Source: Rhodospirillales bacterium BBD 1991-14 (GTDB lineage Bacteria; Pseudomonadota; Alphaproteobacteria; Kiloniellales; Kiloniellaceae). Taken from it: 64,000 nt of DNA. The DNA lies in assembly GCA_001657395.1 (NCBI GenBank), contig LYSY01000001.1, positions 434,001 to 498,000 of the forward strand, in the 5' to 3' direction. The position numbers and the translations under genes were made by a program. Below, in pieces: positions 36,100 through 43,872 of this stretch. The notes beneath the pieces are model-generated. The model did no database searches. It had not been told where the DNA came from and worked only from the letters and a program-made list of their open reading frames with translations. Each line of letters begins with the position of its first letter. Position 1 is the first letter of the stretch.

Positions 36100-36902
36100 G
36101 CGATGTGATTCCCTTTGAAGAAGGTGTCGAGGGTGCGCGCAGCGCCACCCGCGACCGCCTGTTGCTGGAACTGGACGGCTATGCCGGGCCCATCGACGTG
36201 TTGCTGGAACTGGCGCGCGACCAGAAGGTCGACCTGACCCAGATCCGTATCCTGGATCTCGCCGAGCAGTACCTCGACTTCGTGAAGGAGGCGCGGGCCA
36301 TCCGGTTGGAACTGGCGGCCGACTATCTGGTCATGGCTGCCTGGCTGGCCTACCTCAAGTCGCGCCTGCTGCTGCCGGAGGTGGGCGGCGAGGAGGAACC
36401 GACCGGCGCCGAGATGGCGGCGGCGCTGAAATTCCAGATGCAGCGCCTGCAGGCCATGCGCGACGCCGGCCAGAAACTGATGGCGCTGCCGCAGCTGGCG
36501 CACGACATTTTCGCCCGCGGCACGCCGGAGCGGCTGCGCACCCGCACCACCACCACCTACGACGCCAGCCTCTACGACCTCCTGAAAGCCTATGGGCGGA
36601 ACAAGTCCCGCGCCACCGTCACCAACCTGGAGATCAAGGCGACCGAGCTCTACTCGGTCGACGAAGCCATGTCGCGCCTGTCCTCGCTGTTCGGGATGGC
36701 GGTTCCGGGCTGGCGGTCGCTGTCGTCGTTCCTGCCGCCGGAACTGCGCGGCGATCCGCTGCTCACCCGCTCGGCCCTGGCCTCGACCTTCGCGGCCAGC
36801 CTTGAACTCTGCAAGGCGGGCAAGCTGCGCATTCGCCAGGACGGCACCTTCGGCACAATCTATCTGCGCGGCACCGATGAGGAGCAACAGGAACATCCAT
36901 GA
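36096..36902 (+). CDS. scpA: Segregation and condensation protein A
   Basis: Kleisin subunit of the SMC-ScpAB condensin, 268 aa. LLLELDGYAGPIDVLLELAR near residue 18 and KVDLTQIRILDLAEQYLDF near 40 form the N-terminal SMC-neck-binding domain. ADYLVMAAWLAYLKSRLLLP near 72 is the most conserved family block, and the C-terminal winged helix ends the protein. The GTG start at 36096 overlaps the preceding stop; earlier in-frame starts would lie inside the protease gene. scpB overlaps its stop (ATGA). Confidence 0.95.
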   Translation: MSDVIPFEEGVEGARSATRDRLLLELDGYAGPIDVLLELARDQKVDLTQIRILDLAEQYLDFVKEARAIRLELAADYLVMAAWLAYLKSRLLLPEVGGEEEPTGAEMAAALKFQMQRLQAMRDAGQKLMALPQLAHDIFARGTPERLRTRTTTTYDASLYDLLKAYGRNKSRATVTNLEIKATELYSVDEAMSRLSSLFGMAVPGWRSLSSFLPPELRGDPLLTRSALASTFAASLELCKAGKLRIRQDGTFGTIYLRGTDEEQQEHP

Positions 36903-37879
36903 GCGCTGATTTTGACAACGTGCGGCTGGTCGAGGCCCTGCTCTTTGCCTCCTCCGAGCCGCTGGCGCCGGCCCAGTTGGCCCGCTTCCTGCCGGAAGAC
37001 ACCGATCTGGATGCGATCCTGAGTGATCTGGAAACGCTCTACGCGAACCGCGGCGTGAACCTGGTCAAGCGCGGCGGGCGCTGGGCCTTTCGCACCGCGG
37101 TGGACCTTGCGCCGCGCATGGAACTGGAGACCAAGGTCGTCCGCAAGCTCTCGCGCGTGGCCCTGGAGACCCTGGCGGTGATCGCCTACCACCAGCCGGT
37201 GACCCGCGGCGAGATCGAAGAGATCCGCGGCGTCGCGCTCTCCAAAGGAACCCTCGACACGCTGTTGGAAATCGGCTGGATCCGCCCCAAGGGCCGGCGC
37301 AAGACGCCGGGCCGGCCGGTCACCTGGGGGACCAGCGAGGCCTTTCTCGACCACTTCGGCCTGGACTCCCTCGATGCCCTGCCGGGCGCCGAGGAGCTCA
37401 AGGCGGCCGGGCTGCTGGACAGCCGGCCGGCGATCACCGCGCTGGGCGACCGCGGTCTGCTGCCCGGCGTTGGCGAAGTGGCGCCGGAGGCGGTCGACGA
37501 GGACGAGGAAGAAGACGAGAACGAAAACGGCGAGGGCAGCCTCGCCGAGGGCGACGATGGTGTTCTCGATCCGGCGTTCGGCGAGAACCTGCTGCCCCAG
37601 GAGGTCGACCTCGCCGCGCTCTCCGCTGAGGATCAAGACGGCGCCGAGGCGCCTGACGCGGAGGACCTGCCCGCAGAGTACGAACCCACGGAGGAGCAGA
37701 CCGCGGCAGAGCCGGATAACCGGGACGGGGAGGTCGGCGCGGCGGACGATGCGGAGGCCGGTGACCCGCAAGAGCATGACCCGGACGAGGATGAGCCCGA
37801 AGAAGAGGGGCCGGCGGACGAAGAGGTGGGCGAACTCGTCGACCTGAACGCAGAGGGGGCCAAACGCGGCCACGGCTGA
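36899..37879 (+). CDS. scpB: Segregation and condensation protein B with long acidic tail
   Basis: ScpB binds the ScpA linker as a dimer in the SMC condensin. The first 190 or so residues are canonical: VRLVEALLFASSEPLAPAQL, WAFRTAVDLAPRM, LSRVALETLAVIAYHQPVTR, and GRPVTWGTSEAFLDHFGL near 139. The remaining 130 residues are an acidic tail (runs such as EDEEEDENENGEG and EDEPEEEGPADEEVGEL). The total of 326 aa is well above the roughly 200-240 usual for the family. The tail has no recognisable fold. ATGA overlap with scpA indicates coupled translation. Confidence 0.94.
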   Translation: MSADFDNVRLVEALLFASSEPLAPAQLARFLPEDTDLDAILSDLETLYANRGVNLVKRGGRWAFRTAVDLAPRMELETKVVRKLSRVALETLAVIAYHQPVTRGEIEEIRGVALSKGTLDTLLEIGWIRPKGRRKTPGRPVTWGTSEAFLDHFGLDSLDALPGAEELKAAGLLDSRPAITALGDRGLLPGVGEVAPEAVDEDEEEDENENGEGSLAEGDDGVLDPAFGENLLPQEVDLAALSAEDQDGAEAPDAEDLPAEYEPTEEQTAAEPDNRDGEVGAADDAEAGDPQEHDPDEDEPEEEGPADEEVGELVDLNAEGAKRGHG

Positions 37880-39148: not shown

Positions 39149-39397
39149 ATGGGAACCTTTAGTATTTGGCACTGGCTCATTGTGCTGGTGGTTGTTCTTG
39201 TCCTCTTCGGCGGGGGTGGAAAGATCCCCAAGCTGATGCGTGACATGGGACAGGGAATCAACGCCTTCAAAAAGGGCCTGAAAGAAGACCAGAAGGCCAA
39301 GGACAAGGCCGCCGACGGGGACGACACCAAGGTGATCGACCAGGAGGCGCCGGCCATGGCGTCCACCGAGGAAAAGGACAAGGCTGCAAACGGCTGA
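39149..39397 (+). CDS. tatA: Sec-independent translocase subunit TatA
   Basis: Pore-forming Tat component, 82 aa. [20 protein letters not shown] is the single N-terminal membrane helix, followed by the hinge [10 protein letters not shown] and the amphipathic helix [20 protein letters not shown]; the tail is charged. TAAGGAGA at 39134-39141 is a strong ribosome-binding site. First gene of tatA-tatB-tatC-like-tatC. Confidence 0.96.
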
Positions 39398-39450: not shown

Positions 39451-39954
39451 ATGTTTGATATCGGCTGGACCGAGATGATGGTGATCGCGTTGATCGCCCT
39501 CATCGTCATCGGACCGAAAGATCTTCCCGGAACGCTGAAGACCGTCTCGCAGTGGGTGCGCAAGGCGCGCTCGCTGACGCGCGAGTTTCAGTCGGGGATC
39601 GACGACATGGTCCGGGAGGCCGAACTCGACGATGCCCGGAAGATGCTGGAGGAAACCCGGCGCGGCAATCTCGAGAAAACGATCAGCAACGCGATCGACC
39701 CGACCGGTGACGTGGCCGACGAAGTCCGTGACATCGAACGCGAGGCACGGCGCGAACAGCCCGCCGACGGCACCGCTGGCGAAGCCGAGCCCTCCGACGA
39801 CAGCAACGCGGCCAAGGCATCGGTTCTGATGTCCAAGCCGGCGGCGCCGGTCGCACCGCCCCATTCGCTGGACACGGGCAAACCGGCCGAGACCGAAGCC
39901 CCATCCACAGAACCGGCGCCGGCACCAAAGCAGGACAGTAAGCAGTCGGCATGA
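39451..39954 (+). CDS. tatB: Sec-independent translocase subunit TatB
   Basis: TatB forms the signal-peptide receptor with TatC, 167 aa. MFDIGWTEMMVIALIALIVI with the GPKDLPGTLKTV hinge is diagnostic, including the conserved Glu8. The amphipathic helix and a long acidic, proline-containing tail follow (KPAAPVAPPHSL, TEAPSTEPAPAPKQ). Its stop codon overlaps by four bases (ATGA) the start of the divergent TatC-like gene rather than that of tatC. Confidence 0.95.
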   Translation: MFDIGWTEMMVIALIALIVIGPKDLPGTLKTVSQWVRKARSLTREFQSGIDDMVREAELDDARKMLEETRRGNLEKTISNAIDPTGDVADEVRDIEREARREQPADGTAGEAEPSDDSNAAKASVLMSKPAAPVAPPHSLDTGKPAETEAPSTEPAPAPKQDSKQSA

Positions 39955-40583
39955 CCACGGTGACCGAGGCGCAAGACTCAAAAAGAAGGCTCCGGGCTGG
40001 GCCGCTTCGTCGCGTGGCCTACTGTTCGGCAGCGCTCTTGGGCGTTTTTCTGATCTGCTTCTTTTTGGCTGAACAGATACTCGGATTTCTGTTGCAGCCG
40101 GTGCTCTCTGTTCTGATCGAAAACAACATGATCGAAGCGCATAGCGCTTACCAGTTCACCTCCCTCAAAGCGCTGTTCGGGATGTATGTGGCGGTAGCCC
40201 TCTTTGCGGCTGTTTTCTTATGCACTCCTTTTTTCTTGTACCAACTCCAGGCGTACTGGGCCGGGCGGCACGGCGAACCGTCGAACCTGGGAGAGGGCAC
40301 CACGATTGCGGTCTTGGCGCTGCCCATTCTGCTTGGGGGAGCGCTGGCCTATCACGTTGTTTTTCCCTTGGTCGCAGGCCCCATTGCTGAGCTGCAAGGG
40401 CCGATTTCCGAGTTTGACCGGATCGTATGGGCGGACCTTTGGGTCGAGGGGCACCTGTATCTGCTGATGAAGGTTATTGCCGCCACTGCACTTTGCTTTG
40501 CGCTGCCGGTAACCTTGTTTGTCTTGAGTCGTGTGAGTAAGGCCGTGAGGCTTTCCGGCGGCAGCTCCGGTAGGTACGAATGA
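39951..40583 (+). CDS. Truncated, divergent TatC paralogue
   Basis: A 210-aa membrane protein aligned with the first two-thirds of the next gene, tatC. Its first seven residues (MTTVTEA) are identical to TatC and come from a 20-bp perfect direct repeat (39951-39970 and 40580-40599). Helices 1-4 match: LLGVFLICFFLAEQILGFLL with LLVVFLVCFFFAEQIFDFLA, AVFLCTPFFLYQLQAYWAG with AAFICAPVFLMQLWLFVAP, and LYLLMKVIAATALCFALPV with FSLMMKLIFAFGLCFQLPV. HLIELR (E. coli Glu15) and the YKHE loop (Glu103), which contact signal peptides, are lost, and helices 5-6 are absent. Base composition is visibly more AT-rich than neighbours. The frame is intact and coupled at both ends (ATGA). Confidence 0.88.
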   Translation: MTTVTEAQDSKRRLRAGPLRRVAYCSAALLGVFLICFFLAEQILGFLLQPVLSVLIENNMIEAHSAYQFTSLKALFGMYVAVALFAAVFLCTPFFLYQLQAYWAGRHGEPSNLGEGTTIAVLALPILLGGALAYHVVFPLVAGPIAELQGPISEFDRIVWADLWVEGHLYLLMKVIAATALCFALPVTLFVLSRVSKAVRLSGGSSGRYE

Positions 40584-41470
40584 CCACGGTGACCGAGGCC
40601 CCCGACGAGAAGAAGATGCCGTTGCTCGATCATCTGATCGAGCTGCGCCAGCGCATGCTGTGGAGCGTCGCGTCGCTTCTGGTGGTCTTCCTGGTCTGCT
40701 TCTTCTTTGCCGAACAGATCTTCGACTTCCTCGCCAGGCCGTTGGCCGACGTCCTGCTCGAGGGGCGGGAGGACAACCGCCCGCCGCGCCTGATCTTCAC
40801 CAATCTGACCGAGGTCTTCTTCACCTACGTCAAGGTTGCCTTCTTCGCCGCCGCCTTCATCTGCGCGCCGGTCTTTCTCATGCAGCTCTGGCTGTTCGTC
40901 GCGCCCGGCCTCTACAAGCACGAGAAGGCGGCCTTCGCGCCCTTCCTGGCGGCGACGCCCTTCCTGTTCTTCCTCGGCGGCGGCCTGGTCTACTGGATCA
41001 TCTTCCCTTTCGTCGTGGAGTTCTTCATCGCCTTCGAGACGTCAGGCGGCGACGGCAACCTGCCCATCGAACTGGAACAGCGGGTGGCAGAGTACTTCTC
41101 GCTGATGATGAAGCTGATCTTCGCCTTCGGGCTCTGCTTCCAGCTGCCGGTGATCATGACCCTTATGGCAAGGGTCGGCCTCGCCACCTCCAAGGGCATG
41201 GCGGCCAAGCGCAAGTACGCCATCGTCGGCGTCTTCATCTTCGCGGCGATCTTCACCCCGCCGGACCCCATCAGCCAGCTCTCCCTGGCGATCCCCATCG
41301 TGCTGCTCTACGAGGTCTCCATCTACATGGCCAAGTGGGTCGAGCGCAGCCGTCCGAAGGACGAGTACGACGATCTGGATGACGACGAACTGGGCGGGGA
41401 CGACGGCGGCGGAGACAGTGGCCCGGAGAGCGACGGGCAGAGCGGCGGCACCTCACCGGCGGCGACCTGA
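40580..41470 (+). CDS. tatC: Sec-independent translocase subunit TatC
   Basis: Core Tat receptor with six helices, 296 aa. Key elements are present: PLLDHLIELRQRMLWSVA (residues 14-31, with the Glu equivalent to E. coli Glu15), APGLYKHEKAAFAPFL near 112 (equivalent to Glu103), FPFVVEFF, the helix-4 block LIFAFGLCFQLPVIM and the C-terminal IFTPPDPISQLSLAIPI. The acidic tail (DDLDDDELGGDDGGGDS) is common in alphaproteobacteria. Its ATG overlaps the stop of the TatC-like gene. It is the functional receptor on motif grounds. Confidence 0.97.
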   Translation: MTTVTEAPDEKKMPLLDHLIELRQRMLWSVASLLVVFLVCFFFAEQIFDFLARPLADVLLEGREDNRPPRLIFTNLTEVFFTYVKVAFFAAAFICAPVFLMQLWLFVAPGLYKHEKAAFAPFLAATPFLFFLGGGLVYWIIFPFVVEFFIAFETSGGDGNLPIELEQRVAEYFSLMMKLIFAFGLCFQLPVIMTLMARVGLATSKGMAAKRKYAIVGVFIFAAIFTPPDPISQLSLAIPIVLLYEVSIYMAKWVERSRPKDEYDDLDDDELGGDDGGGDSGPESDGQSGGTSPAAT

Positions 41471-41714: not shown

Positions 41715-42992
41715 ATGCTGGACATCAAATGGATTCGCGACGAGCCTGAAGCCCTCGACGCCGCGCTGAAACGCCGCGGCCTCGATCCGCTGTCGGAGGC
41801 CGTGCTGTCCATCGACTCCCGGCACCGGGCAACCCAGGCCGAGTTGCAGGCCATGCAGACGCGCCGCAACGAAGCCTCCAAGGCTATCGGCGAGGCCAAG
41901 CGCAAGGGCGAGGACGCGGCGGCCCTGATGGAAGAGGTCTCCGGGCTCAAGACCCGGATGGCCGAAGCGGAGGACGCGGAGCGCCGCCTCAGCGCCGAGC
42001 TCGGCGATCTTCTGAGCGGCATCCCCAACCCGACACTGCCGGACGTGCCCGAAGGGGCTGACGAGGATGCCAACGTCTGCCTGCGCGAGCACCTGGCGCC
42101 GACCGACTTCGCCTTTCCGCCCAAGGAGCACTACGAGCTGGGCGAGGCGCTCGGCTTCCTGGATTTCGAGACCGCGGCCAAGCTCTCCGGCTCGCGCTTT
42201 GTGGTGATGCGCGGACAGATCGCCCGGCTGCACCGGGCGCTGGCCCAGTTCATGATCGACCTGCACACCACCGAGCATGGCTATGAGGAGGTCGCGCCGC
42301 CGCTGCTGGTGCGCGACCACGTCCTCTACGGCACCGGGCAGTTGCCGAAGTTCGCCGAGGACCAGTTCCGCACCACCAGCGATCACTGGCTGATTCCGAC
42401 GGCGGAGGTGCCGCTGACCAATCTGGTGGCGGGCGAGATCCTGCAGTCCGAGGCGCTGCCGATCCGGGTGACGGCGCTCACGCCCTGCTTTCGTTCGGAA
42501 GCGGGCTCGGCCGGGCGCGACACCCGCGGCATGCTGCGCCAGCACCAGTTCGAAAAGGTGGAGCTGGTCTCCATCACGCGGCCCGAGGACTCCGCTGCCG
42601 AGCACGAGCGCATGGTGGGCTGCGCCGAAGAGGTCATGAAACGCCTCGGCCTGCCGTACCGCGTGATGGTGCTTTCCACCGGGGACATCGGCTTCGGGGC
42701 GGCCAAGACCTACGACGTGGAGGTCTGGCTGCCGGGGCAGAAGGCCTATCGCGAAATCTCGAGCTGCTCCAACTGTCTGGACTTTCAGGCGCGGCGCATG
42801 AAGGCGCGCTACCGGCCCGTGGATGAAAAGGGCACCCGCTTCGTACACAGCCTTAACGGCTCCGGCGTCGCGGTGGGCCGCGCCCTGATCGCGGTCATGG
42901 AGAACTACCAGCAGGGCAACGGCAGCATCACCGTGCCGGAAGCCCTGCGGCCCTACATGGGCGGGCTGGAGGTGATTGGCGATCATGGCTAA
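41715..42992 (+). CDS. serS: Serine--tRNA ligase
   Basis: Class II synthetase of 425 aa. It has the N-terminal coiled-coil arm for the long variable loop of tRNA-Ser ([20 protein letters not shown] near residue 38), motif 2 [20 protein letters not shown] near 260 and motif 3 [19 protein letters not shown] near 385. Length and motifs are canonical. The last eight bases overlap the surE start. Confidence 0.98.
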
Positions 42993-43872
42993 GAGCAGCA
43001 AAGGCAAGTCCGGCCCCGGCAAATCTGGGCCCGGCAAATCTGGGCCCGGCAAATCTGGGCCCGGCAAATCTGGGCCCGGCAAATCTGGACCCGGCAAATC
43101 CGGCATCGATCTGAAGCGTGCGCGCATCCTCGTCACCAACGACGACGGCATCAACGCGCCGGGCCTGAAGGTGCTGGTGAAGCTCGCCAAGACCCTGAGC
43201 GACGACGTCTGGGTGGTGGCTCCGGAAAGCGAGCAGTCGGCGACCAGCCACTCGCTGACTCTGCGCCGGCCACTGCGGGAACGGCGTCTGGGCAGCAAGC
43301 GCTTTTCTGTGGACGGCACGCCCACCGACTGCGTGCTGGTCGCCCATCACCGGATCCTTGCCGACCGGCTGCCGGACCTCGTGCTGTCCGGCATCAACGA
43401 CGGCGGGAATCTGGCCGAGGATGTGACCTACTCGGGCACCATCGCCGCGACCATGGAGGCGGCCCTGCTGGGCATCCCTGCCATCGCCTTTTCCCAGCAG
43501 CGGGGCGAAGACGGCATCGCCCGCTGGAAGGTGCCGGAGGTCTTTCTGCCTGATATCGTGCGCAAGCTGGTGAAGATGCGCTGGACCAAGGACCTGCTGG
43601 TCAACGTGAACTTTCCGGCGGTCGCGCCGGAGGACGTCACCGGCATCGAGGTCTGTCGCCAGGGGCGCCGCGACGAGGGGACGACCGTCAACGAGACCTT
43701 CGATCCTTCGGGACGGCGCTTCCTGTGGATCGGCGGCTACCAGCTGGACACCTCCGAGGAGCGCGACAGCGATCTGGCGGTGACGGCCAAGGGCGGGATC
43801 TCGGTCACGCCCCTTCATCTGGACCTGACGCACCGGGCAAGCATGAAATCCCTGAGGGAGCTCTTCGGCTGA
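42985..43872 (+). CDS. surE: 5'/3'-nucleotidase SurE with repeat-encoded N-terminal extension
   Basis: Metal-dependent nucleoside monophosphatase. The SurE core starts near residue 46 with [18 protein letters not shown] (the DD metal ligands), then [13 protein letters not shown] near 78, the [12 protein letters not shown] block, and [20 protein letters not shown] near 136. Before it lies an extra N-terminus of about 45 residues made of KSGPG pentapeptides, coded by a perfect 15-bp minisatellite. SurE normally begins at the core, so the extension is unusual. The ATG at 42985 overlaps serS by eight bases. The total is 295 aa against roughly 250-265 usually. Confidence 0.95.
43003..43104 (+). 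repeat. In-frame 15-bp minisatellite inside surE
   Basis: Unit ggcaaatctgggccc: four identical copies (43018-43077) flanked by single- or few-base variants at 43003-43017, 43078-43092 and a partial unit to about 43104. Each unit codes GKSGP, so gain or loss of copies keeps the surE frame. Confidence 0.95.

Follow-up and report, generated by a model that had tools for sequence, protein, structure and literature searches.

What is a second, incomplete TatC doing inside a twin-arginine translocation (Tat) operon that already encodes a complete one? The question is raised by a 64,000-nucleotide stretch of the genome of Rhodospirillales bacterium BBD 1991-14 (contig LYSY01000001.1, positions 434,001 to 498,000; hereafter the window), in which a gene that we call tatX lies between tatB and tatC. 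Our analysis shows that tatX is a real, receptor-dead TatC paralog, rare in the genomes searched and under weak selection, in the operon order tatB-tatX-tatC. As to its role, we tentatively propose that it is a retained partial duplicate serving at the TatBC core as a TatC-like partner without receptor function, that is, a blank or capping protomer; our confidence in the paralogy is far greater than in this mechanistic statement. An orthologue of equal length, 88% identical, in the same place and with both of its junctions preserved, is found in a second genome of the genus (record L065, NZ_JANQKD010000026.1, Pelagibius sp. metagenome-assembled genome isolate PL25a_bin.145; hereafter the sister genome).

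The homology of tatX to TatC is well beyond chance. The protein reaches 60.5 bits against PF00902, whose cut-off is 25.1 (E 2.6e-16), the match spanning profile positions 8-168 of 208, and among the structures with which its predicted fold was compared TatC alone stands out, the model having a TatC fold over transmembrane helices 1 to 4 (TM1-4). An earlier note on this DNA, made from its letters only, had aligned tatX with helices 1-4 of the adjacent TatC and had named an unrelated membrane family as what would refute paralogy; profile and predicted fold bear out the alignment, and no such family emerged from the structure comparison. Against TIGR00945, the TatC equivalog profile, tatX scores 46.3 bits and stays below the cut-off of 132.7. 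It covers TM1-4 only, ending before TM5 at the alignment column that holds tatC A214 (about E. coli residue 196), and it is without the TM5-6 of a functional six-helix TatC, including the TatB polar-cluster site. Hydropathy and charges suggest an N-in/C-in topology: the window copy has 6 lysines and arginines among its first 22 residues and 4 among its last 19, the sister copy 5 and 3. The receptor site has also gone. The residues described as signal-peptide contacts in E. coli TatC (H12, E15, F94, Y100 and E103; PMC13323110) read gap, gap, Y, G/R and S in the two tatX copies when mapped through an alignment of the window TatC to E. coli TatC, in which the placement of the N-terminal gap is uncertain. 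All five are lost, the stretch bearing HLIELR being deleted or replaced and APGLYKHE replaced, and the alignments agree with the earlier observation that the E15 and E103 equivalents and helices 5-6 are missing.

The gene is an intact open reading frame of 210 codons with an ATG start, joined to tatB and to tatC by a 4-bp ATGA overlap at either end, as had been noticed before. The features of the operon are as follows.

39149..39397, plus strand: tatA, 82 aa (PF02416, E 8.1e-14).
39451..39954, plus strand: tatB, 167 aa (PF02416, E 4.1e-5, 23.2 bits against a cut-off of 21); its TGA stop lies inside the ATGA shared with tatX.
39951..40583, plus strand: tatX, truncated TatC paralog, 210 aa, TM1-4 (PF00902; predicted fold; 88% orthologue in L065; dN/dS below 1).
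39951..39954, plus strand: tatB/tatX ATGA overlap, of the same type as the tatB/tatC junction of the six genus genomes without tatX.
39951..39970, plus strand: the 20-nt start of tatX, an exact match to the tatC start.
40580..40583, plus strand: tatX/tatC ATGA overlap, arranged identically in the sister genome.
40580..40599, plus strand: second copy of the 20-nt start, which is the start of tatC.
40580..41470, plus strand: tatC, 296 aa, full-length, with the receptor residues present (PF00902, E 1.6e-69; TIGR00945, 213.4 bits against a cut-off of 132.7; alignment to E. coli TatC).
41715-42992, after tatC: serS, a name read from sequence only.

The first 20 nucleotides of tatX and tatC are identical in the window (20/20), which upholds the exact shared start reported earlier, and match at 17/20 in the sister genome. 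The GC content of tatX is 56.9% versus 64.7% for tatB, 63.7% for tatC and 67.8% for serS; tatA is also low at 57.4%, so that the remark that tatX differs from its neighbours in base composition holds against the first three and not against tatA. At third codon positions its GC fraction (GC3, 0.678) is the lowest among the six genes measured.

Within the genus, of which Pelagibius is one named member, tatX was found in two of eight genomes, those of the window (G000) and of the sister (G001, taken to be L065). The other six each have a single PF00902 match, and in all six tatB overlaps tatC directly via ATGA, leaving no room for tatX. The search of relatives proposed in the earlier note has returned one intact orthologue and its absence from most of the genus; the stop codons that would have indicated decay in a sister strain were not found, and the frame is open in both carriers. 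Our wider survey covered 791 genomes (G000-G790), each searched with PF00902, including samples drawn from the phylum (396) and the class (387); for the class and the phylum up to seven candidates per genome were scored, and results refer to the matches listed. Among these, 22 of the 791 genomes have two or more matches. Nineteen of the 20 such genomes besides the two carriers were re-examined, and the remaining one (G008), with one match short at its N-terminal end and one weak match in a 625-aa frame, was judged from the first PF00902 search. None of the 20 shows, among the matches listed, a full tatC preceded by an N-terminal copy, and we found no description of the tatB-tatX-tatC layout in the parts of four papers that were read; the one paper retrieved on Pelagibius together with tatC concerns resistance genes on plastic waste.

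The survey brought up other arrangements. Two near-full-length TatC matches lie on different contigs in G123 (L074, L084), G149 (L076, L083), G629 (L093, L103) and G752 (L092, L102). In G319, G382, G588 and G759 (L079, L080, L100 and L099) the profile is matched as two pieces, 130-180 nt apart, in a single uninterrupted frame (322-432 aa), as though the periplasmic region carried an insert between profile positions ~130 and 136. One record (L107, G782) has a C-terminal tatC fragment at ~1441-1600 beside a full tatC at ~1945-2680 with repeated flanks containing an N, and looks like an assembly or tandem-repeat artefact.

Is tatX then maintained as a protein? The two copies differ at 26 of 210 amino acids and at 63 nucleotides, giving for this one pair a ratio of nonsynonymous to synonymous change (dN/dS) of 0.24 by NG86 and 0.385 by YN00. 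The corresponding values are 0.166 and 0.057 for tatC, 0.069 and 0.055 for tatB, 0.029 and 0.014 for serS and 0.246 and 0.20 for scpB, while tatA has no amino-acid change between the carriers and its YN00 value is not computable. The comparison with tatC suggested earlier thus comes out higher for tatX by both methods and still below 1. In a neutral simulation with stops forbidden the mean number of amino-acid changes was 39.7-42.9, and at none of the four kappa values tried did any of 1000 runs give 26 or fewer. The changes in tatX thus favour silent sites more strongly than a neutral model that forbids stops would produce, which makes pure decay unlikely, and with no stops or frameshifts in either carrier and a non-neutral substitution pattern in this species pair tatX does not have the marks of a pseudogene. 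It is under weak protein-level constraint, weaker than that on tatC and tatB. Among the non-tat neighbours compared, the scpB-like gene (window 36899-37879, 85% identical to its L065 counterpart) evolves faster than the others.

The alternative that survives best is a decaying duplicate, whose frame would stay open only through the coupled translation of tatC while a protein without a role drifts in sequence. Such decay would agree with amino-acid change faster than in tatA, tatB and tatC, with the lowest GC3, with the loss of the receptor sites and with the absence from six of eight genus genomes, but it would not explain the shortfall of amino-acid changes in every simulation, the same length and junctions in both genomes, or that 12 of 14 changes inside the assigned transmembrane stretches remain hydrophobic or small. 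We regard it as unlikely while giving it appreciable weight; as the whole story, the decaying copy kept in frame by coupling that the earlier note had offered is disfavoured, even though the constraint is the weaker one just described. Past constraint may also be mixed with recent relaxation.

We compared tatX with 47 TatCs, of which one comes from an alphaproteobacterial record (L066) and the order supplied 46, from among its 58 genomes with a PF00902 match. We called a site conserved if it was the same in at least 90% of them and kept if either tatX copy retained it, with segment borders set by hand. In the helices tatX keeps 5/7 such sites in TM1, 8/14 in TM2, 10/20 in TM4 and 1/11 in TM3; elsewhere it keeps 3/11 in the N-terminal stretch, 2/8 in the TM2-3 loop and 4/9 and 3/10 in the periplasmic loops P1 and P2. 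Identity between tatX and tatC in TM1 is 14/20 in the sister genome, compared with 46/149 over the remaining helices and the loops (p 0.001), and 12/20 versus 47/149 in the window (p 0.022), p-values that serve as guides only, TM1 having been picked after inspection. Of the identical TM1 residues, 7/14 in the sister and 7/12 in the window use different synonymous codons. A spacer or stoichiometry device, in which translation of tatX sets the TatB:TatC ratio by coupling and selection merely keeps a harmless four-helix protein, would suit the two ATGA overlaps and the mostly conservative changes in the transmembrane stretches. It would not predict the contrast between TM1, where the TatC residues are kept, and TM3, where almost all are gone, and we find it rather doubtful.

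By sequence identity tatX is closest to the TatCs of its own genus. The eight of the 47 TatCs closest to the window tatX are the eight genus TatCs (34.0-37.9%; next 32.8%), and for the sister tatX the first seven belong to the genus, while the eighth genus TatC, that of G002, ties with an outsider at 33.5%. The start MTTVT is that of the genus tatC, and the gene sits at the ancestral tatB-tatC junction. We infer that tatX was created by one tandem duplication event covering only the first ~200 codons of tatC, which gives exactly the observed order. In a 49-row tree the tatX stem is ~10 substitutions per site, and none of the four groupings tried in one-clade tests was rejected (p 0.134-0.266). 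A 17-row test under LG+F+G4 rejected none of five constrained placements (approximately unbiased test, p 0.22-0.84); the best attaches tatX at the root of the subclade to which the carriers belong, with a saturated and rough stem of ~3.1 substitutions per site. At the 27 sites that tell the two genus subclades apart the picture is mixed, tatX agreeing with its own subclade at 4 and with the other at 8. As the trees fail to place tatX, its timing is read from presence or absence and rates only. The path between the two tatX copies measures 0.164 and that between the two tatCs 0.020, an eightfold difference, and the tatC branch since the split from G002 and G006 is ~0.08; had tatX arisen after that split an eightfold rate would be too small for a stem of this length, pointing to an early burst or to an older origin with loss. 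Because of the common 20-nt start, recombination between the copies could delete tatX without a scar, so that its absence in relatives dates nothing. Presence in two of eight genomes would be expected if tatX arose recently and then changed in a burst, and also if it is older and was lost elsewhere without a scar. Of the ancient tandem duplicate proposed in the earlier note, the tandem paralogy stands on closest relatives, start and junction, and the duplicate may be old or recent.

The large burst (the saturated ~3.1 stem against 0.16 between the copies) could also reflect a new function outside the Tat complex, by exaptation of TM1-4. However, tatX is still inside the tat operon with its overlaps and resembles only TatC among the structures compared, and we consider such a role improbable. 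Transfer of a foreign tatC fragment into the operon, for which the lower GC3 and the unsettled tree placement might be invoked, is very improbable given the genus TatCs as nearest relatives of the window copy, the genus-type start and tatB junction and the best-scoring, if not exclusive, placement beside the carriers; homologue searches showed no relative in another genus closer than the genus TatCs.

The tatX layout is a variant of known multiple-TatC arrangements. Relative to the TatC of TatABC systems (PF00902, TIGR00945; E. coli TatC) it is homologous over TM1-4 and lies in the same operon, and differs in the missing helices and contact residues and the sub-threshold equivalog score given above. 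In TatCd/TatCy and other multiple-TatC cases, some attributed to internal duplication, there are likewise two TatC-family genes per genome, but these are described in PMC3827258 as TatC isoforms or loci, whereas tatX is a partial, receptor-less copy within the same operon. Halobacterium TatC1 and the double TatC2 are encoded in direct vicinity and an asymmetric complex with one working site has been proposed (PMC13186574); there TatC2 is two fused TatCs while tatX is a separate truncated protein. Finally, the E. coli TatB-TatC fusions in which tatC is cut short by a stop after TM4 have a nearly equal truncation point (Y195 versus ~196 in tatX), but they are laboratory mutants whose dominance needs the TatB fusion, and loss of receptor residues as in tatX is not described in the passages of PMC5102672 consulted.

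How could a blank or capping protomer work? In E. coli the Tat core is a TatBC trimer in which two TatCs flank each TatB helix, one by its TM5 (and TM5-6 loop) and its neighbour by TM1; for the native complex a composition of TatA1B2C3, with a single full site, is inferred (PMC13323110). By our proposal tatX would be made as a four-helix, N-in/C-in membrane protein with translation linked to that of TatB and TatC. It would offer a TatC-like TM1 face, the one that packs on the neighbouring TatB helix in E. coli TatBC, and would provide neither the TM5 polar-cluster site nor a signal-peptide site; it might thus flank one TatB, hold none through TM5 and bind no substrate, lowering the number of receptor sites. 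Given the E. coli geometry, a kept TM1 with TM5 and the pocket absent favours such a protomer. A bolder and rather unlikely reading makes tatX a dedicated non-receptor protomer that takes up one of three TatC positions, so that the core would be built asymmetric, with reduced numbers of sites for TatB and for substrate; this would be a genetically encoded counterpart of the asymmetry that TatA is inferred to bring about in E. coli TatA1B2C3.

Several points weigh against a retained partner at the core complex. The dN/dS of tatX is the highest by YN00 (computed for 8 of 9 genes) and second by NG86 after scpB, indicating weak constraint in the one pair; the periplasmic loops, site of TatC-TatC contacts, are poorly kept (4/9 and 3/10), as is TM3 (1/11); and the gene is missing from six of eight genus genomes. 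In E. coli, tatC stops after TM4 (for example S185, E187, L189, K191 and Y195) were recovered in TatB-TatC fusions, dominance required the fusion to TatB, and the authors suggest that a lone truncated TatC cannot stably interact with the complex (PMC5102672). These data weigh against an easy, stable incorporation of an unfused tatX.

Further along the window, a SurE-like frame (its start at 42976-43110) opens with six GPGKS repeats ahead of its SurE-like domain; its listed TTG start may be wrong or the repeat tail may be unusual, the L065 match beginning only at residue 30.

Current papers debate whether all three TatC protomers have to be receptors and what gives rise to asymmetry. A natural operon with one full TatC and one receptor-less TM1-4 TatC would let this be tested genetically. 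If tatX stays outside the complex, it would still be a clear case of a partial duplicate that selection has retained within a conserved membrane operon.
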